From assembly GCA_013299105.1 (NCBI GenBank), contig JAAFJY010000022.1:1-64000 (forward strand): DNA of 64,000 nucleotides, written 5' to 3'. The position numbers and the translations under genes were made by a program. Every line of letters starts with the position of its first letter. The stretch's first letter is position 1. The stretch comes from Chitinophagales bacterium. Lineage in GTDB: Bacteria; Bacteroidota; Bacteroidia; Chitinophagales; Saprospiraceae. Under the pieces are notes generated by a model. The model was not told where the DNA came from. It made no database searches and was given only the letters and a program-made list of their open reading frames with translations. Below are positions 13,422-32,034 of the stretch, piece after piece.

Positions 13422-13559
13422 AAAAGCGGGGAAACTGCGGTTCGGAGGTGCTCTGCGAAGGTGCTCATTTGCTTCGATAGAAGATCCGTTTATACTCGTC
13501 CCCGACTGGTTTTGTGCAAATCATTGGTCAAGATGAGTCCTGGTTTGTTCGGCATGCTT

Positions 13560-13665
13560 TTTTGACATACGATAGACGACATACAACTTACGACATATGA
13601 TTTAGGGGCTCGCTGGGGAAATTTGTCCTATTTTTAGGTTCTCGTTTGCACGGTTTGAGATTTTT
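13560..13665 (-). repeat. Dispersed repeat B, copy 1
   Basis: Read on the minus strand: AATCTCAAACCGTGCAAACG, then a variable stretch, then CCCCAGCGAGCCCCTAAATC and a tail of 7 bp units (TCATATG, TCGTAAG, TTGTATG, TCGTCTA, TCGTATG). The same order occurs at 22361-22455 and 41588-41697. Confidence 0.75.
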
Positions 13666-21438: not shown

Positions 21439-22215
21439 TTACGCAGTCAAAATACCTTTCACAAAATCACGCGTACTGGCTGCTACATCTGTACTGCCCC
21501 CCACTGCCTTGATGAATGCACTGCCAATGATGGCTCCGTTGGCATACTGACATGCCTGGCGATAGGTAGCATGGCTAGAAATGCCAAAACCAATCAAGCG
21601 TGGATTTTTGAGTTGCATGGCATTGATGCGTTCAAAATAGTCAATTTGTGTTGAGCTGATCTCACTTTTAGCTCCGGTGATCGAAGAACTGGACACCATA
21701 TAGATGAAGCCATTGCTGAGCTCATCCACTTTTTTGACCCTGGCAGCCTCAGTTTGTGGGCTGATCAAGAAACTGATGCTCAGTCCCAGTTCTTCTACAA
21801 TCTTGCGGTACTTGGATTCGTACTCGTACAAGGGTAGGTCGGGCAAAATCAGCCCGTCAATGCCCACGGCGGCAGCTTTTTCAAAAAACTTTTGCTCGCC
21901 ATATTGCATTACTTGGTTGAAATAGCCCATCATAACCAGCGGAATGTTGGTTTTTTGGCGCACGACCTCCAGTTGCTCAAACAACAAAGGCAAAGTCATG
22001 CCATTTTGCAGCGCTTGGGTCCCACTCTCCTGGATGGTTGGACCATCGGCAAGGGGGTCAGAGTAGGGCATGCCTACTTCGACGAGGTCGGCCCCGGCCT
22101 TTTCCAGGTTCAAAATAATGGTTTCGGTATCCTGCAAGTTCGGATAACCGGCAGTGAAGTAGATATTGAGGATGTTTCGGTTTTTTCCCTGAAACAAGCG
22201 TTGAATGCGATTCAT
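21439..22215 (-). CDS. trpA: Tryptophan synthase alpha chain
   Basis: A 258-residue TIM barrel that cleaves indole-3-glycerol phosphate to indole and glyceraldehyde 3-phosphate. The catalytic Glu46 and Asp57 lie in LVEVGMPYSDPLADGPTIQ. FTAGYPNL near the N-terminus and VSSSSITGAKSEIS, GFGISSHATYRQACQYANG and GAIIGSAFIKAV near the phosphate site are intact. The ATG at 22215 is chosen; the open frame begins two codons earlier at a TTG. It is the last trp gene, separated from trpB by 279 bp that contains an octamer array and repeat B, an unusual gap for two chains that form one complex. Confidence 0.95.
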   Translation of the reverse strand: MNRIQRLFQGKNRNILNIYFTAGYPNLQDTETIILNLEKAGADLVEVGMPYSDPLADGPTIQESGTQALQNGMTLPLLFEQLEVVRQKTNIPLVMMGYFNQVMQYGEQKFFEKAAAVGIDGLILPDLPLYEYESKYRKIVEELGLSISFLISPQTEAARVKKVDELSNGFIYMVSSSSITGAKSEISSTQIDYFERINAMQLKNPRLIGFGISSHATYRQACQYANGAIIGSAFIKAVGGSTDVAASTRDFVKGILTA

Positions 22216-22227
22216 TTGCAAATGGAG

Positions 22228-22259
22228 TTGAAGGGTTGAAAAGTTGAAGGGTTGAAGAG
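22228..22259 (+). repeat. Octamer array (TTGAnnnG)4
   Basis: Units TTGAAGGG, TTGAAAAG, TTGAAGGG, TTGAAGAG in exact 8 bp register, 13 bp upstream of the trpA start. Confidence 0.75.
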
Positions 22260-22360
22260 CGCGACCCTCGTTTAATCAACTGTCCTTGTTTTAAAAGTCA
22301 AAAAGCAGCTTTTAAGTAAATTCTGGGCAATTGGGTTTTTGAAATTGAAAAATAAAAAAA

Positions 22361-22455
22361 TCCCAAACCGTGCAGACGATAATCCAAAACACGACAAATC
22401 TCCCCAGCGAGCCCCTAAATCAGATGTCGTATCTCGTATCTCGTCTATTGTATGT
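22361..22455 (+). repeat. Dispersed repeat B, copy 2
   Basis: AATCCCAAACCGTGCAGACG, a short spacer, CTCCCCAGCGAGCCCCTAAA and a heptamer tail GTCGTAT, CTCGTAT, CTCGTCT, ATTGTAT. It sits between trpB and trpA. Confidence 0.75.
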
Positions 22456-22494
22456 TTAAAAACAAACCCAATAAACCAGAATTCACGTTGGCAT

Positions 22495-23673
22495 CTACAA
22501 ATGCTTCATGTAAGTATCAAGGTCCTTGTCCCCCCGGCCAGAAAGGCAAAACACCAGTATATCACTTGGCTTGTATTGCATGTACTTGAGCGCGGCAAAA
22601 GCATGCGCAGTTTCTAAGGCTGGAATAATGCCTTCGCGGCGCGACACGAGTACTGCGGCTTCAAGGGCTTCCTCATCGGTGATGCTGATCGCCTCGGCAC
22701 GACCTGTGCTAATCAAGTGTGCGTGCATCGGGCCAATGCCGGGGTAATCGAGGCCTGCTGAAATGGAGTGGGGCTCCACGATCTGCCCGTCTTCGGTCTG
22801 CATCAGCAAGGTGCGACTGCCGTGGATGACTCCCTTGGTACCCAAAACGCTGGTAGCCGCCGATTTACCGCTGTGGATGCCTTCGCCAGCCGCCTCAACG
22901 GCAATCAGGCGTACTTTTTCCTCGTTCAAATAATGGTAAAAAGCACCAGCTGCATTGCTGCCTCCACCCACGCAGGCGATGACCGCGTCGGGATATTTTT
23001 TGCCCGTATGCTCCTCCAACTGCCACATGATCTCTTCGCTGATCACCGATTGAAAGCGGGCCACCATGTCGGGATAAGGGTGCGGGCCAACTACCGAGCC
23101 GATGATGTAATGCGTATCCACAGGGTTGTTGATCCAGTCGCGGATGGCTTCATTTGTAGCATCCTTGAGGGTTTTGCTGCCACTAGTGGCGGGACGAACT
23201 TCAGCCCCCAACATGCGCATCCGGGCCACGTTGGGGGCTTGCCTTTTGATGTCGACCTCGCCCATGTACACGATGCACTGAATGCCCATCAAAGCACAAA
23301 CGGTGGCCGTAGCTACCCCGTGTTGTCCTGCTCCAGTTTCAGCAATGATGCGGGTTTTGCCCAGGCGTTTGGCCAAAAGGATCTGGCCGATGGTGTTGTT
23401 GATCTTGTGTGCGCCAGTGTGGCAAAGGTCTTCACGCTTGAGATAAATGGTGGTACCATAATATTCCGACAAGCGCTTGGCCAGGTATAGCGGCGTGGGG
23501 CGGCCCACATAATCGCGCAGCAAGTGCTGAAATTCTCGCTGAAAATCAGGTTGCGAAGACAAGTCCAGGTACTTTTGTCGCAATTCCTCCACATTAGGAT
23601 GCAACATTTCGGGGATAAATGCCCCTCCGAATTCTCCGTAGTAGCCTTGTTCGTTTACTGTGATGGGTGCCAT
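22495..23673 (-). CDS. trpB: Tryptophan synthase beta chain
   Basis: A 392-residue PLP enzyme that joins indole and serine to make tryptophan. The Schiff-base Lys90 is in [33 protein letters not shown] and [16 protein letters not shown] (phosphate loop) and the [17 protein letters not shown] region are complete. Length and motifs point to the ordinary TrpB1 form that pairs with TrpA. It lies between trpF and trpA, with an octamer array in the 52 bp in front of it. Confidence 0.97.
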
Positions 23674-23687
23674 GTTCGTAATTTGAG

Positions 23688-23719
23688 TTGAAATGTTGAA
23701 GGGTTGAAATGTTGAAAAG
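23688..23719 (+). repeat. Octamer array (TTGAnnnG)4
   Basis: Units TTGAAATG, TTGAAGGG, TTGAAATG, TTGAAAAG in exact 8 bp register fill most of the 52 bp trpF-trpB gap. Confidence 0.75.
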
Positions 23720-23725
23720 AAAGGA

Positions 23726-24385
23726 CTAGCTTTTGAGGCCGTTGAGAAAAGTGGCGATTTTCTCCACTGCCTTCAAGCCGGGTGAAACCTCGAATTTGCT
23801 GTTCAAATCTAGCCCAACAAGTTGTGGGTGCCGTACCAGGCGTATGTCATTCACCGATTCGGGAGCGATACCGCCGCTGAGGATGAAAGGCGTATCGCCG
23901 TGGTAGTTGTCCAGCAAGCGCCAGTTGAATTGTTGGCCAGTGCCGCCAAAACCCGCTCCTTTGGTATCAAAAAGAAAGTACTTGCAATAAGGGCGATAAA
24001 ATTGGGTTTGGGCAAAATCAAAGTTTTCGTCGATGCCAAAAGCCTTGATCATACTGGCCCTGCGGATCGAACTAAAGCTCCACAAATCGCTCAATTCACG
24101 GCAGTACTCTGGGCTTTCGTTGCCGTGGAGTTGCACAAAATCGAGTTCAAAATCGTGTACCCGATTCAAGACCGTTTCTACCTCCGCATCTACAAATACC
24201 CCTACCCTGGCCGGGCTGTCGAGGGTCTTTTTGCCCTCTCCGTTGAGCCATTTTTCCAGTTTTTTATTGCTTTCAGCAAAACGGGGCGACTTGGGATAAA
24301 AAATAAAGCCAATCATGTCGATGGGCAGTTTTTGTACTGCTGTGATGTTCTCCTGATCGCGCATGCCGCATACTTTCACCAACAT
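23726..24385 (-). CDS. trpF: Phosphoribosylanthranilate isomerase
   Basis: A 219-residue TIM barrel that rearranges phosphoribosylanthranilate to CdRP. Family motifs: [12 protein letters not shown] (catalytic Cys near residue 6), [24 protein letters not shown], and the phosphate site [12 protein letters not shown] with [13 protein letters not shown] (the usual Asp is present). It starts 5 bp after the trpC stop, so the two are translationally close, and the protein is separate from TrpC (no fusion). Confidence 0.95.
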
Positions 24386-24390
24386 ACTGC

Positions 24391-25206
24391 TTAATTTTGT
24401 AGTTTAAAAACGGGGCTTTCAATTGCTTTTACTTGGCCCACAAACTCGGCGAAACGCTGCTGCGGGCGTTCGTCGCGCATAAAATGTTCGCCAATCAAAA
24501 AGCCTTGGAATCCGGCTTGCTTGAGTTGTACGATGGTTTCAGCCTGGCTGATGCCACTTTCGGAGATGCGCAAAGCCTCTTTCGGCATTTTGTCAAACAA
24601 GTCCAATGAAGTCTGCACGCTCACTTCAAAAGTCTTGAGGTTGCGGTTGTTCACGCCCACCACGTCAATGTCAGGGGTCCACTTGTCGAGTTGGTCGGCG
24701 GAATGGACTTCGAGCAGCACTTCCAGGTTCAAAGACTTGGCGGTTTTAGCTAACGCTGCAACTTCTTGATGGTTCAAACACTCGGCGATCAGCAAAATCA
24801 CATCCGCGCCCATGCTGCGCGCTTCGATGATTTGGTACTCGTCGATCATGAAGTCTTTGCGCAAAATCGGAACCTGATTGGCTGCCCGCCCCGCCATGAG
24901 ATCTTCGGGGCTGCCCCCAAAAAAGTCGCGGTCGGTCAGGATCGACAAGGCCGAAGCCCCTGCTGCGGCATATCCAGCCGTCACTTCCGCCGCTGAGGCG
25001 CTGCGATTCAAGTCGCCCTTGGATGGCGAATGTCTTTTGAACTCCGCAATGATGCCCGTGCGTTGTGGATCGAGCAAAAACTGGCGCAAAGAGTAAGTAG
25101 AGCGAGAAAAACCCAGCTGGGCTTCCAGTTCCTTGATCGAAACCAGGGCTTTGCTTTCCGCTACCTCTTCTTTTTTGCGTGCTACGATTTTATCTAAAAT
25201 ATTCAT
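24391..25206 (-). CDS. trpC: Indole-3-glycerol phosphate synthase
   Basis: A 271-residue TIM barrel that closes CdRP to indole-3-glycerol phosphate with loss of CO2. The catalytic Lys/Glu segment IAEFKRHSPSKGDL, RKDFMIDEYQIIEARSMGAD, VGVNNRNLKTFEV and SESGISQAETIV all match. The start is ATG 25206, 2 bp after the trpD stop; the in-frame TTG at 25212 is not needed. The tight spacing suggests coupling with trpD. Confidence 0.96.
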   Translation of the reverse strand: MNILDKIVARKKEEVAESKALVSIKELEAQLGFSRSTYSLRQFLLDPQRTGIIAEFKRHSPSKGDLNRSASAAEVTAGYAAAGASALSILTDRDFFGGSPEDLMAGRAANQVPILRKDFMIDEYQIIEARSMGADVILLIAECLNHQEVAALAKTAKSLNLEVLLEVHSADQLDKWTPDIDVVGVNNRNLKTFEVSVQTSLDLFDKMPKEALRISESGISQAETIVQLKQAGFQGFLIGEHFMRDERPQQRFAEFVGQVKAIESPVFKLQN

Positions 25207-25208
25207 TT

Positions 25209-26207
25209 TCAAAGAGTTTGCAAGGAAAGCAATTTATTGAAAGTAGCCAGGGCTTTGCCAGCGTCGATGCTTTTACGGGCTTCGGCCACACAGTCTGGCA
25301 GCGATTGCTGGGGCTTGATGACCTGGATGGCCAGACCAGCGTTGGCCAATACGGCGTTTTTCTGGGCTGCAGTGGCTTCGTTTTTCAACACATTCCAGAA
25401 AATCTTTGCCGCATCTTCGGCGCTTTGTCCACCGTCCAAATCTTGGGCGCTACAAGCTGGCAGGCCAAAATGTTGAGGATCCAGTACTTTTTCACTTGTT
25501 TTGGTGCTGAATTTCACTTTGCCCGTGAGCGACACCTCGTCGTAACCATCAAAGGCGTAAACAATGCCGTATTCGCGGCCACTGGCCTGCATTACATATT
25601 GGTACATGCGCTGCAATTCCATGCTGAAAACCCCCAGTAATTGGTACTTGGGCTGCAAGGGATTGACCAATGGGCCGAGGATGTTGAAAAAAGTCTTGGT
25701 GCCCAACTGCCGCCGCACGGGCACCACCGTTTTCAGGGCCGGGTGAAACAAGGGACCATGCAAAAAGCAAATACCCGCGTCGTGCAAGTAGCGCTTGAGT
25801 TTGTCCTGTTCGTTGGTGAAAGCATAGCCCAGTTGCCCCAGCACATCCGAGGACCCCACCGAGGAGGAAACGCCAAAACTACCTTGTTTGGTCACCGCAT
25901 AACCCGCCCCAGCCACCACCACACAAGACAAGGTAGAGATGTTGAAGGTATTTTTGCCATCGCCCCCCGTACCTACAATGTCGATGGTTTCGGGGTGATC
26001 GAGGTCGATTTTTACACAGGCTTCTAGCAGTGCATCGCGAAAACCCTGCAATTCAGGCATGGAAATCGGGCGCATGTTGAAGGCCGTGACGAAGGCAGCA
26101 ATCTGCACTTCGTTGTATTGCCCCTCGGCAATTTGGCCCAACACCTGTTTGGCTTCGGCCCGGTCCAGGCTCTGGTGTTCGTATAAGCGATTTAAAATCT
26201 GTTTCAT
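25209..26207 (-). CDS. trpD: Anthranilate phosphoribosyltransferase
   Basis: A 332-residue enzyme that attaches phosphoribose to anthranilate. The PRPP-binding motif DIVGTGGDGKNTFNIST is complete, and KQGSFGVSSSVGSSDVLGQL and VPVRRQLGTKTFFNILGPLV match the family's KHGNRxxSSxxGSADxLexL and RxxLGxRTxFNxLGPL phrases, with KQG and SSS in place of KHG and RSV types. The start at 26207 (MKQILNRLYEHQ) begins the helical domain; the frame upstream is unconserved. It is separated from trpG by 334 bp with a terminator-like hairpin. Confidence 0.95.
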   Translation of the reverse strand: MKQILNRLYEHQSLDRAEAKQVLGQIAEGQYNEVQIAAFVTAFNMRPISMPELQGFRDALLEACVKIDLDHPETIDIVGTGGDGKNTFNISTLSCVVVAGAGYAVTKQGSFGVSSSVGSSDVLGQLGYAFTNEQDKLKRYLHDAGICFLHGPLFHPALKTVVPVRRQLGTKTFFNILGPLVNPLQPKYQLLGVFSMELQRMYQYVMQASGREYGIVYAFDGYDEVSLTGKVKFSTKTSEKVLDPQHFGLPACSAQDLDGGQSAEDAAKIFWNVLKNEATAAQKNAVLANAGLAIQVIKPQQSLPDCVAEARKSIDAGKALATFNKLLSLQTL

Positions 26208-26330
26208 TTTGTAAAAATCCGGTATTAAAAAAGCGCTTAGTAAAGTGTCAAAATGCACCAAATCTTGCCGGGTCTTGAGCGCAGCAGTGTCAACGTCGTG
26301 GTCAAAATCATGCTGGCAATCCGCAAGAAA

Positions 26331-26448
26331 GGGGTGTGTCGTGGGTAAGTGTGAGTTCGAGTGTGGGGGCTTCGATCAAAATCCTTTGACTCGCTTAATT
26401 GGAACTGGGGTTTATGCACACTCACACCCAAACAAACACACCCAAACC
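26331..26448. mobile_element. MITE-like 118 bp inverted-repeat segment
   Basis: Inverted arms GGGTGTGT (26332-26339) with ACACACCC (26436-26443), and GTGTGAGT (26349-26356) with ACTCACAC (26420-26427). It has no coding capacity and interrupts repeat D copy 1. Boundaries are approximate and no clear target duplication is visible. Confidence 0.45.
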
Positions 26449-26463
26449 CAATTTTATCCGCGT

Positions 26464-26493
26464 GCTAAAAATGGCCTCGCTCTGCGAGGCCAT
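26464..26493 (-). terminator. Terminator-like hairpin between trpG and trpD
   Basis: The perfect 10 bp stem ATGGCCTCGC-tct-GCGAGGCCAT (26471-26493) is followed on the minus strand by TTTTTAGC, so it has the shape of an intrinsic terminator in the direction of the trp operon. It belongs to repeat D. Confidence 0.6.
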
Positions 26494-26541
26494 TGAAGCA
26501 ACGCAGTTGCGATTTGGTACATTTTATTCGTGGCTTATCAC

Positions 26542-27141
26542 TTACGCTACACCTACACTCAATTTCTGCTCACAGTACTGCAAAAAGTTGCGCAACATCT
26601 GCTTGCCGTCAGGAGTCATCACCGATTCGGGGTGAAATTGCACGCCAAAAATATCGTATTCGCGGTGGCGTATGGCCATGATTTCGCCGTATTGGTCTTC
26701 CGCAGTCACGATCAAATCAGCGGGCAGCGTGTCTTTTTTCACCACCCAGGAATGGTAGCGCCCAGCCTCAAAAGTCTGCGGTACACCCTGAAAAAAGCCC
26801 CGATCGTCACCCAATTGGTTCATGTAACTGGCTACCCCATGAAAAACTTTTGAGAGGTTGTGCAATTTGGCCCCGAAAGCTTCGCCGATGGCCTGGTGGC
26901 CTAGGCATACGCCCAAAATGCACTTGCTGGCCTGGTAGCGTTGCAAAAGCGCAGGCATGATCCCCGCTTCTTCGGGCAGGCCGGGACCAGGCGAAAGGAC
27001 AATCACGTCGTAATCATCCACGGCATCGAGGCTGATGGCGTCGTTGCGAAAAACCTCGATGTCGGCACCCAGGATTTCCTGGATGTACTGCACCAGGTTG
27101 TAGGTAAAAGAGTCGTAGTTGTCGAGCACAAGCACTTTCAT
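26542..27141 (-). CDS. trpG: Anthranilate synthase component II (glutamine amidotransferase)
   Basis: A 199-residue class I amidotransferase that feeds ammonia to TrpE. The triad is visible: Cys79 in GVCLGHQAIGEAFG, and His170 and Glu172 in VQFHPESVMTPDG. LSPGPGLPEEAGIMP is the oxyanion-loop motif. Such subunits may also serve aminodeoxychorismate synthase, but the location in the trp operon, 21 bp after trpE, favours anthranilate synthesis. Confidence 0.96.
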   Translation of the reverse strand: MKVLVLDNYDSFTYNLVQYIQEILGADIEVFRNDAISLDAVDDYDVIVLSPGPGLPEEAGIMPALLQRYQASKCILGVCLGHQAIGEAFGAKLHNLSKVFHGVASYMNQLGDDRGFFQGVPQTFEAGRYHSWVVKKDTLPADLIVTAEDQYGEIMAIRHREYDIFGVQFHPESVMTPDGKQMLRNFLQYCEQKLSVGVA

Positions 27142-27162
27142 TATCTATAGTTTTGGGAATAA

Positions 27163-28572
27163 TCAATTCTGTTTGCCAAGCTTTTCAGCTTCGCCCAGGG
27201 CCTTGGTCAGGGCACCGAGTTTATTGTGTACTTCTTGCAATTCGTTTTCCTCCTTGCTGTCTACCACAATGCCAGCCCCGGCCTGGTAATATAAGGTGTT
27301 GTTGCGACTCAGGAAAGAACGGATCACAATGCAGGTATTGATGTCGCCATCAAAACCAATGTAGCCCAAAGCCCCGCCGTAAAAAGCGCGGTTTTGGTTC
27401 TCGTACTGGTTGATGAGTTGGATGGCTTTGTATTTTGGCGCGCCAGACAAGGTTCCGGCAGGAAAAGTATCACCAAAAATTCGCACTGGGTTAGACCCTT
27501 CCGGCAATTGGCCAGTGACTGTAGAAACCAGGTGAATGACATGACTGAAAAATTGGACCTCTTTCAGTTTTTTGACCTCCACATTCACCGCGTGGCGGCC
27601 CAGGTCGTTGCGGGCGAGGTCCACGAGCATGATGTGCTCGGCGTTTTCTTTGGGGTCCACGGCCAAAACTTTGGCGCGGGTGGCGTCTTCGATGGCGTCG
27701 CCGCTGCGGCGATAGGTCCCCGCGATGGGGTTGACGCGGGCGATACCCTTGCGTACCACCATTTGGGCTTCAGGCGAGGAGCCGAAGATTTTGTAATCGC
27801 CATAATCAAAATAAAAAAGGTAAGGCGAGGGGTTGATTGAGCGCAAAACGCGGTACACATTGAACTCGTCGCCTTGGAATTTTTGCGAAAACTGGCGCGA
27901 AAACACGATCTGAAACACATCGCCGATCTGGCAGTGGTGCTTGCCGATGCGCACCAATTCTTTGAATTCCTCGTCGCTGAGGTTGCTTTCTTCCGCACCG
28001 TCCAATGAAAAAGTGTGGGTGCTGATTTTTTGCATGTCGATCAGTTGCTCCAAACGCTCCATTTCTGACTCCTGGCCAGGCAAGAGGTTCTCCAAAATCA
28101 CCAGCTCGTCGTTGAAGTGGTTGATGGAAATCACGAAGCGGTGCAGGTTAAAACGCAAATCGGGGATGTCCTGGGTGCGTTTTTCGGCTGCAAACTCCAG
28201 GGTGTCGAAGTACTGCACCCCGTCAAAACTCACGTGCCCCAGCAAGCCATTCAAGGCCCGGATGCCGTTGCTGTCGTTGGTTTTGAAGCCTGCCGCAAAG
28301 GCCTGGAGTTGGGCGGGGACCTCTTCTACGCCATTCACCGCTTTGGTTTCGACCCTGCCGTCGGGGTAGCGGAGTTGCATTTCACCATTTTGCACTTTGA
28401 ACTCGGCTATGGATTGCAAGCCGATGAAAGAATAGCATTCTTCAGGCAAAGCAAAGTCGTTGCTTTCCAGCAAAACCGGGGAGGTGTAATGGTCACGCAG
28501 CTTGAGGTACAATGACACCGGGGTGGCGATGTCGGCCAGCTTGCGTTTAATTTTTGTGTTCAGATGAATCAT
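27163..28572 (-). CDS. trpE: Anthranilate synthase component I
   Basis: A 469-residue chorismate-binding enzyme that makes anthranilate from chorismate and ammonia. The LLES motif (34-37) in SPVLLESNDF is the tryptophan feedback site, so the enzyme is probably inhibited by tryptophan. The catalytic domain has YLFYFDYGDYKIFGSSPEAQ, NPIAGTYRRSGD, AEHIMLVDLARNDLGR, FPAGTLSGAPKYKAIQLI and YYQAGAGIVVDSKEENE. It is the first gene of the operon, with an attenuator in its leader and its ATG at 28572, 31 bp after the terminator stem. Confidence 0.97.
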   Translation of the reverse strand: MIHLNTKIKRKLADIATPVSLYLKLRDHYTSPVLLESNDFALPEECYSFIGLQSIAEFKVQNGEMQLRYPDGRVETKAVNGVEEVPAQLQAFAAGFKTNDSNGIRALNGLLGHVSFDGVQYFDTLEFAAEKRTQDIPDLRFNLHRFVISINHFNDELVILENLLPGQESEMERLEQLIDMQKISTHTFSLDGAEESNLSDEEFKELVRIGKHHCQIGDVFQIVFSRQFSQKFQGDEFNVYRVLRSINPSPYLFYFDYGDYKIFGSSPEAQMVVRKGIARVNPIAGTYRRSGDAIEDATRAKVLAVDPKENAEHIMLVDLARNDLGRHAVNVEVKKLKEVQFFSHVIHLVSTVTGQLPEGSNPVRIFGDTFPAGTLSGAPKYKAIQLINQYENQNRAFYGGALGYIGFDGDINTCIVIRSFLSRNNTLYYQAGAGIVVDSKEENELQEVHNKLGALTKALGEAEKLGKQN

Positions 28573-28602
28573 GAATGGGCACTTTGTAGCGAACGATTTG
28601 GG

Positions 28603-28648
28603 TTAAAACAGCATCGGCTTGCCGGGGGTCCCGACAAGCCGATGCTGT
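28603..28648 (-). terminator. trp attenuator (leader terminator hairpin)
   Basis: Perfect 14 bp stem ACAGCATCGGCTTG (28608-28621 on the plus strand) with CAAGCCGATGCTGT (28635-28648), loop 13 with inner GGG/CCC pairing, followed on the minus strand by TTTTAACC. It lies between the leader peptide and trpE, where an attenuator terminator should be. Confidence 0.85.
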
Positions 28649-28669
28649 GATGTGTGCAACATAAATGGC

Positions 28670-28732
28670 CTATCCTTCCACCCGGGTCCGAGAAGAATGA
28701 TGCCACCACCACATGCTGCTCAATTGAATCAT
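28670..28732 (-). CDS. trpL: trp operon leader peptide with Trp-Trp-Trp
   Basis: A 20-codon open frame, ATG at 28732 and TAG at 28670, reading MIQLSSMWWWHHSSR and on to VEG. Three TGG codons in a row at positions 8-10 make it a classic Trp sensor: ribosomes stall there when Trp-tRNA is scarce, changing the folding of the mRNA so that the terminator at 28603-28648 does not form. It lies about 20 bp downstream of the predicted transcription start and 21 bp before the terminator stem. The peptide itself should have no other job. I could not draw a single convincing antiterminator; CAGCAT early in the leader can pair with ATGCTG of the terminator's 3' arm. Confidence 0.85.
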   Translation of the reverse strand: MIQLSSMWWWHHSSRTRVEG

Positions 28733-28759
28733 AAAAGAAGTTTTTGATTGCTTCGATCG

Positions 28760-28789
28760 CAAAGTTAGGGGAATTTTGGATTTTTGCAA
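28760..28789 (-). promoter_or_regulatory. trp operon promoter (TTG-19-TAACTTTG)
   Basis: Minus strand TTG at 28789-28787, a 19 bp spacer and TAACTTTG at 28767-28760, both in the Bacteroidota consensus. Predicted start is close to 28753, giving a leader of about 180 nt before trpE. Confidence 0.8.
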
Positions 28790-28936
28790 GAGGTGGGGGG
28801 AATTTTTTAGGGGAAAATAGCAAACCAAGGGTTGGGTTCAAAGGCTTCCGTTGACCATGTGCACGAAATAATTAGTACTTTGACAAATAGTGTGGTCAAT
28901 ATCTTTTCAGACTGCGATTATGAGTAAAGCACTGGA

Positions 28937-28963
28937 TTTTGAAAACTTCGGAAAAGTTTCAGC
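28937..28963 (+). repeat. Palindromic repeat F, copy 1
   Basis: TTGAAAACTTCGGAAAAGTT followed by TCAGCA, an imperfect palindrome (GAAAACTTcggaAAAGTTTC) related to those at 29126, 41122 and 41502. Confidence 0.5.
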
Positions 28964-29010
28964 AGCGACAATTTTTGTGCTGAAAATGATTGCTAGCGTG
29001 ACGTTGACCG

Positions 29011-29104
29011 ACCAACGTTAGGGACTTACAGCCCCACCAAACATGATGTTATCCTTCATGCTACCGACGTTAGGGGCCTACAGCCCCGCTAATATGGTGC
29101 TGTT
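29011..29104 (+). repeat. Repeat E, two direct copies
   Basis: CCAACGTTAGGGACTTACAG with CCCC at 29012 and CCGACGTTAGGGGCCTACAG with CCCC at 29064, 52 bp apart. The second has stem GGGGC-ctaca-GCCCC. A third, poorer unit lies at 30292-30332. Confidence 0.6.
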
Positions 29105-29125
29105 TAACTCACGGTTGGCTTATTC

Positions 29126-29151
29126 TGAAAAGTTCTCCGAAGTTTTCAGTG
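29126..29151 (+). repeat. Palindromic repeat F, copy 2
   Basis: CTGAAAAGTTCTCCGAAGTT followed by TTCAG: outer arms CTGAAAA/TTTTCAG. Confidence 0.5.
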
Positions 29152-29336
29152 GATTTCACTATTATTTGATGCCATCCAGCACATTTGAATTCAAAAGTAG
29201 CCCCCTTGACTGTTATCCGGTGATGTCCGAAAAGAAATGCTTGCTTTCCGCAGCATTTATCAAAGAATCATTTCCCCCCCTTTGATTTTCATAAACAATC
29301 CTTTGTTTTCCGTAGGTTAACCCACCTGATGATTTG

Positions 29337-29344
29337 TACTTTTG
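29337..29344 (+). promoter_or_regulatory. -7 box (TACTTTTG) for the 29401 gene
   Basis: TACTTTTG fits TAnnTTTG and lies 57 bp before the ATG at 29401; no well-spaced TTG is present. Confidence 0.4.
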
Positions 29345-29400
29345 CAGCATGATTGGGGGCCTATTATGCTCCTTTTTGCTTCAAAAACACACTCACTTAA

Positions 29401-30171
29401 ATGAACAGCGTCAGGTTTTTTGTGATTTTGTTATCCATTTGTTTTGCTTTCCCGGCTTTTGCGCAGCAAAGCGACAGCACCCAGCAAGTCAGCTCATTTT
29501 ACGGCTCAGTGGGCCTTACGAACAACGGTTTTTCCATCATCCCTTCATTTTCACTCAATGCACCAGCGGTGGTGACTTTGCTCAACTGGCAAAAAGGCCG
29601 CTTCATCATCGCACCGGATATTCGCCTCACCTTAGATGCCCGCAAGGGTGGCATGCTTTTTTGGCTGCGCTATAGATTGGTAGAAGGGCAAAAGTTCAGC
29701 TTGAGGGTGGGCGCACACCCGGCTTTCAATTTACAAACCCGCGTGGTTCAAGTAAATGACCAAGACCTGGAACTCACCCAAGCGCGGCGCTTTTTTGCCA
29801 GCGAAATCGCGCCTAACTTCCGCATTACGCCCAAGTGGTCAGCGGGGATGTATTACTTACAAGGGCATGGTTTGCAAAAAGATGGCCCACAAACCACCCA
29901 TTTTGTGACTTTGAACACCAGTTTGAACAACATCAAAGTATCCAAAGATTTACGCTTGATGCTGGCCCCAGCCGTTTTTTACCTGAACCTGGATGGCTAC
30001 GAAGGCACTTATTTTACGGCTACCGTCGCCTTGTCGAGCCAAAAAAGCCCTTTCAGCCTACAATCCTCCATCAACCAAACTTTCAATTCTAACCTGCCAG
30101 GCAACAAGGAGTTTTTGTGGAACGTGGTGCTGAACTACAATTTCCACCAGGATTTTGTGCGGCGGAAGTGA
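29401..30171 (+). CDS. Hypothetical outer-membrane beta-barrel protein
   Basis: A 256-residue protein with a cleavable signal (MNSVRFFVILLSICFAFPAFAQ) and a body of alternating beta strands (FSLRVGAHPAFNLQTRVVQV, APNFRITPKWSAGMYYLQGH, VVLNYNFHQDF) ending in aromatic residues, as in small outer-membrane porin-like barrels. I do not recognise a named family and no catalytic motif is seen. It is preceded by a -7 box (29337) and followed by a hairpin with a short T-run (30208-30228). No operon partners, so its role is open. Confidence 0.75.
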   Translation: MNSVRFFVILLSICFAFPAFAQQSDSTQQVSSFYGSVGLTNNGFSIIPSFSLNAPAVVTLLNWQKGRFIIAPDIRLTLDARKGGMLFWLRYRLVEGQKFSLRVGAHPAFNLQTRVVQVNDQDLELTQARRFFASEIAPNFRITPKWSAGMYYLQGHGLQKDGPQTTHFVTLNTSLNNIKVSKDLRLMLAPAVFYLNLDGYEGTYFTATVALSSQKSPFSLQSSINQTFNSNLPGNKEFLWNVVLNYNFHQDFVRRK

Positions 30172-30207
30172 GGAGCTGCTGATTTGCTACGCCCCGCTTC
30201 GCAGGCT

Positions 30208-30228
30208 GGGCTGCTGTCGCAGCCCTTT
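30208..30228 (+). terminator. Hairpin after the 29401 gene
   Basis: GGGCTGC (30208-30214), loop tgtc, GCAGCCC (30219-30225), then TTT. A short intrinsic terminator is plausible; it occupies the place of the GCCTCGC hairpin in repeat D. Confidence 0.5.
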
Positions 30229-30233
30229 AAGTT

Positions 30234-30292
30234 GGAACACGGATGAGACGGATGTAACTGATCTTCACAGATTTCCAGTGGGACCTTGACTG
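30234..30292 (-). repeat. Dispersed repeat D, copy 2
   Basis: Minus strand: CAGTCAAGGTCCCACTGGAA, ATCTGTGAAGATCAGTTACA, TCCGT and TGTTCC. It matches copies 3 and 4 with about three quarters identity by eye. Confidence 0.6.
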
Positions 30293-30332
30293 CCCAACAC
30301 TTAGGGGCCTACAGTTCTGCTGGTCTGATGTT
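30292..30332 (+). repeat. Repeat E, third copy
   Basis: CCCAACACTTAGGGGCCTAC then AGTTCTGCTGGT, related to the two units at 29011-29104 but with the GCCCC arm changed. Confidence 0.45.
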
Positions 30333-30488
30333 GACAAATTGTTAAATTAGCTCGATACAGAATATGCTTCAACATCCGGGTGGCCCATCAAATGTAATGC
30401 TATTTTGTATGACAATCCTTTGGTTTCAGTCTTTCATTCAGAAGACTACCAGTTCAAAAGACTTAGTTGAGCACGGCGATCTTGTCTT

Positions 30489-30520
30489 TTCAATATTTCA
30501 ACCCTTCAACATTTCAACTT
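30489..30520 (-). repeat. Octamer array (TTGAnnnG), reverse orientation
   Basis: On the minus strand TTGAAATG, TTGAAGGG and TTGAAATA in 8 bp register, preceded by AAG. Confidence 0.6.
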
Positions 30521-30666
30521 CTTCGACCAGCATTACATTTTTAGAGCACTACCAACATCCGCAGCGGGGAAAATTGTCAAGGTAACGCTGGAATCATGGT
30601 CTTCACAAAAATCACAAAAATCACAGTTCAGACAAAAACTCCCTGCTGAAAATCCTGCAATTCCGC

Positions 30667-30674
30667 TACATTTG
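30667..30674 (+). promoter_or_regulatory. -7 box (TACATTTG) for the haloperoxidase-like gene
   Basis: TACATTTG fits TAnnTTTG, 23 bp before the ATG at 30697, giving a leader of about 16 nt. Confidence 0.5.
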
Positions 30675-30696
30675 CGCCGTAACAATTTACTGCATT

Positions 30697-32034
30697 ATGA
30701 ATCCTAAGTTACTGTGCTGGCTGGCTGGTTTGGCCCTGTTCACTTCCTGTCAAAAAGAATACAATCCGGCTCCAGCCGAAGATCCGGAAAACCTGCACCA
30801 GGCGGTCAGGCAGTTGAATGAAGTCATCATCCACGACATTTTTTCGCCTCCAGTGGCCAGCCGTATTTATGCTTATGCTGCAATAGCGGGCTACGAAGCA
30901 GCACACCGTGCCGATGCGGGTACCCTTTCAATGGCGGGCCAATTGAACGGCTACAACCAGGCGCCTCAGCCCGAAGCCGGACAGACTTACTGCTATCAAC
31001 TGGCGGGTTTGCACGCTTTTTTGACCGTAAGCAAAACCCTGACTTTTTCTGAGCCAATGATCGACGAGTTTAGGGAAACGCTCTATGCCAAAATCCGCAA
31101 GGAGTCGCATATTCCCAAGGATGTGTTCGAGCGCTCTTTGGCTTTTGGCGAGGCCGTGGCGACTTCGGTGATCGACTGGTCCAAAACCGATACTTACAAA
31201 GAATCGCGTACTTTCCCAAAATTCACGGTTGACGAAAGTGACCCTACCCGCTGGCAGCCTACACCTCCTGATTACAAAGATGCCGCCGAACCTCACTGGG
31301 GCAAAATTCGCCCGATGACCCTGGATTCTGCCGGGCAGTTTTTGCCCAGCCCTCCTACCCCATTTTCTACGGCCAAAGGCAGTCCATTTTACCAAGACGC
31401 CATGCAAGTGTACGAGGCTTTGGGCAAAACAGGCGACCCCGCAAGAGAAGAAATCGCTTATTTCTGGGACGACAACCCCTTTGTGTCGCACCACCAGGGC
31501 CACGTGATGTTTGCCTCCAAAAAAGTGACGCCTGGCGGGCACTGGATGAACATTGCCATGCTGGCTTCACGCATGAAGGGAGCGAATTACGTGCAGTCTA
31601 GCGAGGCTTACTTGCGGGTAGCATTGGGCTTATTTGAGGGCTTTATCTCTTGCTGGCACGCCAAATACACCTACAACCTGGTGCGCCCCGAAACCTACAT
31701 CAACAAAAACATCGATGAAGACTGGCGGCCATTCCTGCAAACGCCGGCCTTTCCTGAGCACACCAGCGGCCACAGCGTGATTTCGCGTTCGGCAGCGGTG
31801 GGTTTGACCAAAATATACGGCGAAAACTTCGCTTTCAACGATACCACCAACGTGGAATTTGGCCGCACCGCACGCAAATTCAGCTCCTTCCACCAGGCTT
31901 CCGACGAAGCCAGCATCAGCCGTTTGTACGGCGGCATCCATTTTCTGCCCGCCCTGAATGTAGGTTCAGAACAGGGCCGCAAGGTAGGCGATTGGGTAAA
32001 CAACAAGGTTAGGACCCGGAAAGAGGAGAATTGA
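30697..32034 (+). CDS. Vanadium-dependent haloperoxidase / PAP2-like lipoprotein
   Basis: A 445-residue all-helical protein of the vanadium haloperoxidase and PAP2 phosphatase superfamily. It starts with a lipoprotein signal (MNPKLLCWLAGLALFTSCQK). The three active-site motifs are visible: K-x6-RP in KYTYNLVRP (about residue 322), a TSGH form of PSGH in PEHTSGHSVISRSAA (about 352), and SRx5H in SRLYGGIHF (about 407). The fold can hold vanadate or phosphate, so it is either a halide-oxidising enzyme or a phosphatase; sequence alone does not settle this. The signal places it in the cell envelope. No partner genes; it is followed by a hairpin. Confidence 0.88.
   Translation: MNPKLLCWLAGLALFTSCQKEYNPAPAEDPENLHQAVRQLNEVIIHDIFSPPVASRIYAYAAIAGYEAAHRADAGTLSMAGQLNGYNQAPQPEAGQTYCYQLAGLHAFLTVSKTLTFSEPMIDEFRETLYAKIRKESHIPKDVFERSLAFGEAVATSVIDWSKTDTYKESRTFPKFTVDESDPTRWQPTPPDYKDAAEPHWGKIRPMTLDSAGQFLPSPPTPFSTAKGSPFYQDAMQVYEALGKTGDPAREEIAYFWDDNPFVSHHQGHVMFASKKVTPGGHWMNIAMLASRMKGANYVQSSEAYLRVALGLFEGFISCWHAKYTYNLVRPETYINKNIDEDWRPFLQTPAFPEHTSGHSVISRSAAVGLTKIYGENFAFNDTTNVEFGRTARKFSSFHQASDEASISRLYGGIHFLPALNVGSEQGRKVGDWVNNKVRTRKEEN

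Follow-up and report, generated by a model that had tools for sequence, protein, structure and literature searches.

A probable ribosome-mediated attenuator before the trp operon of a Saprospiraceae bacterium and its counterparts in Bacteroidota

The trp operon and its leader region

The window (the whole 64,000-nucleotide stretch of Chitinophagales bacterium contig JAAFJY010000022.1 analysed here) carries a trp operon on its minus strand, preceded by a promoter motif, a short frame with Trp codons and a hairpin:

28789..28760, minus strand: promoter motif TTG-N19-TAACTTTG (TTG 28789-28787, 19 nt, TAACTTTG 28767-28760), read from the sequence
28732 (ATG)..28670, minus strand: leader peptide frame MIQLSSMWWWHHSSRTRVEG plus stop codon UAG, 20 codons, from the sequence and its likeness to short frames in relatives
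28711-28703, minus strand: three successive Trp codons, codons 8-10 of the leader frame, from the sequence
28672-28670, minus strand: stop codon UAG of the leader frame
28648..28605, minus strand: predicted intrinsic terminator, hairpin 28648-28608 followed by U4, from sequence and fold
27163..28572, minus strand: trpE, the first structural gene (ATG 28572), on which a family profile test was run
21439..27141, minus strand: trpG, trpD, trpC, trpF, trpB and trpA in this order, named from their translations

This order of promoter, 20-codon frame with three Trp codons and terminator before trpE, as given in a preliminary description of the locus, was confirmed from the sequence. The T4 of the terminator described there (28648-28603) was also retained, while its 14 bp stem gave way to a perfect stem of 19 bp with a 3-nt loop, after which only four U residues follow. 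The fold of the leader RNA was more stable than those of 200/200 shuffles (z -5.5). The promoter motif, which fits the Bacteroidota-type consensus, was absent from the output of a generic sigma-70 scan, as expected for a motif of this type. TAnnTTTG occurs within 80 nt 5' of the first Trp codon in 55 of the 97 leaders assembled below, compared to 252 of 5938 80-nt windows taken from the second-set loci.

The upstream frame (29401-30171) lies on the plus strand and is divergent from the trp operon, and the terminator at 28648-28608 therefore ends no upstream operon. Immediately upstream of the trp promoter lies a MITE-like repeat (28936-29150) with 20-nt inverted arms (28940-28959/29129-29148), and the genome holds 45 matches to it, the repeat itself among them; six of the others are about 209-215 bp long with 88-93% identity. 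The TrpE of the window scored 408.9 bits against TIGR00564, whose cut-off of 517.7 is exceeded by matches in 72 of 118 phylum genomes; there are perhaps two TrpE types in the phylum, judging from these scores.

Recurrence of the leader in relatives and across the phylum

A search with the TrpE query gave matches in 59 of 60 related genomes, paralogues included, from which a first set of 30 trpE loci (the window and 29 relatives) was taken; five full-length orthologues (47-52% identity) and one fragment fell outside it. A short frame with WW or WWW occupies the same place 5' of trpE in 28 of the 29 relatives, the sole miss (L025) having only 173 nt of upstream sequence, and a terminator-like hairpin follows the leader in the same 28 relatives as well as in the window. 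Beyond the Trp codons the peptide differs between groups. The terminator core, GGCUUGUCG...CGGCAAGCC, is kept in sequence and pairing in most rows of this set, and the T-runs are imperfect in some relatives.

A second set was obtained with a TrpE profile, which retrieved 586 relatives; it covers Saprospiraceae, flavobacteria, Bacteroidales and relatives, Chitinophaga, Microscillaceae and others, and leans to near relatives because the best 80 of the 586 were kept. By rule, a WW frame with a hairpin and T-run was found in 67 of the 76 loci with 500 nt of upstream sequence, compared to 0/76 reverse complements and 1/73 windows placed 1.1-1.6 kb upstream. When the nine misses were read by eye, four (L054, L064, L090 and L093) did carry a WW frame and hairpin, two (L073 and L091) had WHW and a terminator, and three (L043, L105 and L108) were without a Trp run. 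The preliminary description had suggested such a comparison and had regarded a lack of conserved Trp codons or terminator in relatives as evidence against attenuation; both are conserved, in 28/29 and 67/76 loci of the two sets. An additional upstream Trp leader with its own hairpin, at about -250 to -320 before trpE, was seen in L055, L056, L076, L081, L096 and L098, with the peptides NTIWLPWWGLL or SIWLWWGNTFLC, and in L084 the peptide is NKIWWWQSKL. Read from the sequence, these double leaders are putative tandem attenuators.

An even draw of 118 phylum genomes contained 102 with a TrpE-family match of at least 380 bits. Of 87 additional upstream regions, 50 carry a leader and hairpin between -400 and -90. 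The rule itself gave 55, and five of them, at -571 to -608, were set aside; the hairpin of one of the 50 (L226) is doubtful. For the remaining 15 genomes a locus with a leader was already available (the window, L022, L029 and twelve full-length model matches beside trpE), bringing the total to 65 of 102 genomes with a trp leader. No leader before trpE was found in 26/26 genomes of family f36 (L160-L167, L169-L180, L182, L183, L185, L187, L189 and L204) and in 11 others of the draw, and a tblastn search for trpB in the 38 loci without a usable leader, f36 included, found none.

A search of 296 phylum genomes with model R1 gave 136 with a match at E<=0.01, a count that is too high because six of ten weaker or specially chosen places checked (L150, L151, L152, L155, L158 and L159) were not trp-leader-like; among these, L151 has a WW frame with no gene seen after it. 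The 29 strongest R1 matches besides the window all adjoin trpE, and three of the weaker or chosen places (L154, L156 and L157) precede trpE or trpE-like frames. Another, L153 (G137:C3:330424-330528), has a WWW leader, MIIKNLNNNWWWHNDIC, and a hairpin before a frame that reads as trpD-like, and in this genome trpE lies on a different contig, with a WLW leader (L252) in front of it.

A leader with His codons was also observed in the genome of the window (contig C34 of G000, about 13487-13570; L114, L202), where MTLANLHFHHHHALLS, ending in a stop codon, and a terminator lie about 0.33 kb before hisG. By rule, and as a raw count, a short frame with a His cluster is present in 13/13 hisG upstream regions examined, 11 of which have a hairpin below -9 kcal/mol.

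Alternative pairings and the proposed switch

Two further pairings were found in the leader RNA of the window, a 1:2 hairpin and an antiterminator, the latter by folding with pairs inside the terminator forbidden:

28719..28705, minus strand: region 1, the 5' strand of the 1:2 hairpin, including Trp codons, from the fold
28669..28656, minus strand: region 2, the 3' strand of the 1:2 hairpin, directly past the stop codon, from the fold
28685..28657, minus strand: antiterminator 5' strand, from the constrained fold and covariation in relatives
28647..28622, minus strand: antiterminator 3' strand, made of the terminator 5' arm, the loop and the top of the 3' arm, from the constrained fold

The antiterminator 5' strand consists of the final codons of the leader, its stop codon and bases past it, with the pieces CCGGG (28685-28681), GG (28679-28678), GAUAGGCC (28674-28667, with the stop codon) and AUGUUG (28662-28657). 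The pieces of the 3' strand are CAGCAU (28647-28642), GGCUUGUC (28640-28633) and 28628-28622, giving the pairs 28685-28681/28626-28622, 28679-28678/28628-28627, 28674-28667/28640-28633 and 28662-28657/28647-28642. As judged from pairing and geometry, the antiterminator and the terminator are mutually exclusive, and the 5' strand is free when a ribosome is placed at the Trp codons. The same constrained folding gave a similar layout in relatives. A clear antiterminator, which the preliminary description had found missing, is therefore present at 28685-28657/28647-28622 and covaries. The pairing of CAGCAT with ATGCTG offered there in its place was rejected, as CAGCAU 28718-28713 sits in the 1:2 hairpin and the covarying antiterminator lies elsewhere; it is not the conserved pairing and is not needed.

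The statistics that follow used 97 leaders: the first set contributed 29 and the second set 70 of its 80 loci, and two duplicates were removed. The ten loci left out had no qualifying hairpin by rule. Within the 97, L042 is a repeat of L020, and some rows from the same genus are nearly identical. Compared to shuffled upstream strands, the antiterminator energy has a mean z of -2.2, with 79 of the 97 leaders below -1 and 18 not, and the window itself is modest at -2.19. Another 49 leaders, fetched after the idea had formed (L226 skipped), gave a mean z of -1.95, with 41 below -1. The predicted antiterminator pairing begins before the stop codon in 88/97 and 45/49 leaders, respectively.

Covariation was assessed in 23 leaders of the window's family. 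The 16 antiterminator pairs are 80.8% paired, compared to 31-39% for slid versions, and 13 two-sided changes occur over the whole antiterminator, a number reached by 0/500 shuffles (mean 4.8) in a test whose structure came from one row, L013, and whose shuffles ignore relatedness. Pairing amounts to 97.4% in the outer helix, where compensatory changes occur, and is less constant in the inner helices, at 74.8% and 52.2%. For the terminator it is 98.6%, with 25 two-sided changes. We also considered a local hairpin within the HS..RV codons as an anti-antiterminator and rejected it, since 310/500 shuffles attained its degree of pairing.

For the 1:2 hairpin, we folded the stretch that runs from upstream of the Trp codons as far as the terminator. 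Its mean z against shuffles is -2.2, with 86/97 leaders below -1, and the best fold pairs the Trp-codon side with post-stop sequence by at least 5 pairs in 82/97 leaders. In the window the fold has this hairpin competing with the antiterminator; a duplex-only test of the 1:2 pairing was weak, with 15/96 leaders at p<0.05.

We then folded the growing RNA of the window with the ribosome-covered parts hidden. When the ribosome sits at Trp codon 10, the best fold remains the antiterminator until the RNA has grown to 28615, and by 28610 the terminator has taken over. When it sits at the stop codon, the upper stem of the terminator appears from 28620, and with the ribosome absent, the 1:2 hairpin and the terminator form. 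At full length the best fold includes the terminator in each case, even with a stalled ribosome (-41.7, compared to -32.2 for the antiterminator-constrained fold), and the choice must therefore be kinetic.

On this evidence the leader is very probably a ribosome-mediated transcription attenuator of the trp operon, as the preliminary description had proposed, a reading supported by the recurring leader, Trp codons and terminator together with the covarying antiterminator. The switch most likely turns on the trp genes under tryptophan scarcity. A ribosome would translate the 20-codon leader close behind RNA polymerase and, with Trp-tRNA scarce, would stall at codons 8-10, opening the 1:2 hairpin and leaving the RNA from 28685 onward unpaired. 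The freed strand could then form the antiterminator 28685-28657/28647-28622, allowing transcription to continue into trpE. With ample tryptophan, the ribosome would reach UAG 28672-28670 and cover the antiterminator 5' strand, whereas without translation the 1:2 hairpin would sequester this strand, the terminator forming in either case. Coupling, leader translation, stalling, in vivo termination and the tryptophan response are what we infer.

Other explanations of the same features were weighed. The most stable fold holds the complete terminator, which would suit a plain terminator or a processing site, the Trp-rich frame being there by chance or encoding a small functional peptide and no attenuation taking place. 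Nevertheless, the Trp-codon frame, terminator and antiterminator co-occur upstream of trpE across much of the phylum, the peptide differs from group to group outside the Trp codons, and the upstream frame is divergent, all of which make this explanation very improbable. T-box and TRAP/TrpR systems control trp operons in other phyla, and such a system or another ligand-sensing element, instead of a translating ribosome, might control this operon as well. We consider this to have hardly any probability, since what is conserved is a run of Trp codons within an open frame and no corresponding match was found: an Rfam search of 26000-31000 gave no match at E<=1, a T-box was not among the chance-level Rfam matches to the leader at E<=10, and neither TrpBP (PF02081, TRAP) nor Trp_repressor (PF01371, TrpR) had a match in the genome. 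The four U residues in the window and the imperfect T-runs of some relatives could also point to attenuation through translation of trpE or Rho-dependent termination rather than an intrinsic terminator. Against this, the hairpin is a covarying stem with T-rich sequence after it, and it ends 35 nt 5' of trpE in the window and at a variable 16-201 nt in relatives, hence not regularly over the trpE start, and we judge this explanation to be highly unlikely.

Returning to attenuation by a translating ribosome, we see about an even chance that trp attenuators of Bacteroidota share an antiterminator 5' strand that begins inside the leader frame, spans the stop codon and pairs with the 5' arm, loop and upper 3' arm of the terminator, and that a terminating ribosome would block antitermination in them. 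If true, such leaders would be natural reporters of transcription-translation coupling in Bacteroidota, which are said to lack Shine-Dalgarno initiation. The proposed mechanism needs a ribosome close behind RNA polymerase, and the leader thus offers a ready test of coupling in this phylum.

Comparison with known leaders

The preliminary description had referred to attenuation as known from proteobacterial trp operons; Rfam also lists trp leaders of Bacteroidota, under RF01692 (Bacteroid-trp, 'Bacteroidete tryptophan peptide leader RNA'), a row of Table 1 in Weinberg et al. 2010 (PMC2864571). RF01692 matched L112 with 78.1 bits and L121 with 74.5 bits, and its gathering threshold (49 bits) was reached by 10/17 flavobacterial loci and by 1/20 loci from the first set, the locus of the window being one of these 20. 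The window leader itself had no RF01692 match even at E<=10, below gathering, and is therefore not filed under RF01692 by score. Homology was found with model R2, built from 39 leaders that took in accepted RF01692 members and excluded the window and its genus, which finds 28607-28711 with 50.2 bits (E 6.6e-8, a rough value). Model R3, built from 20 flavobacterial leaders, ranks the window leader first, weakly, with 22.6 bits (E 0.025, likewise rough). RF01692 shares with the window its place before trpE, the Trp-codon leader, the 1:2 hairpin and the terminator 5' arm GGCUUGUC; its consensus is one hairpin (1:2) that ends in the terminator 5' arm, and the antiterminator is absent from the model. 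The antiterminator may already be described in the supplements of Weinberg et al. 2010 (PMC2864571), beyond the table row. Judged by its homology to RF01692, the window leader belongs to a known kind, as a divergent yet ordinary member whose switch is resolved here in more detail; the Rfam search of 26000-31000 by itself, giving no match, would have suggested an undescribed element, and it was the search of relatives that led to RF01692.

Older comparative work is said to have named attenuators in Bacteroidetes. For Flavobacterium psychrophilum, strong clues of leader-peptide attenuation before amino-acid operons were reported (PMC9723704), sharing the phylum and the inferred mechanism with our case; the passage concerned contains no trp leader or antiterminator. 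In Bacteroides thetaiotaomicron, leader-peptide-like short frames were reported in long 5' UTRs (PMC7366714), sharing the phylum and the leader-peptide idea, with a hypothetical gene as the example in the part concerned; the word 'tryptophan' is absent from the main text. The parts of PMC4833913 and PMC8305728 consulted hold nothing trp-specific for Bacteroidota, and a literature search for Saprospir- with leader peptide and attenuation, with most subscription papers outside its reach, found none. The present analysis adds the antiterminator, the reach over a wide phylum sample and the matching His leader before hisG in the genome of the window. A search with RF00513 (Trp_leader; gathering 41 bits) gave no match in the window at E<=10, and L009 scored 23.3 bits.

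The classical trp attenuator of Escherichia coli has a Trp-codon leader peptide, the 1:2, 2:3 and 3:4 pairings and a terminator before trpE. The window leader resembles it in its Trp-codon peptide, alternative pairings and terminator before trpE, and differs in sequence. Unlike in E. coli, the 5' strand of the predicted antiterminator takes in the final codons of the leader as well as its stop codon, and the 3' strand extends as far as the loop and upper 3' arm of the terminator. The comparison with RF01692 indicates that a trp leader missed by Rfam is probably the same known switch.
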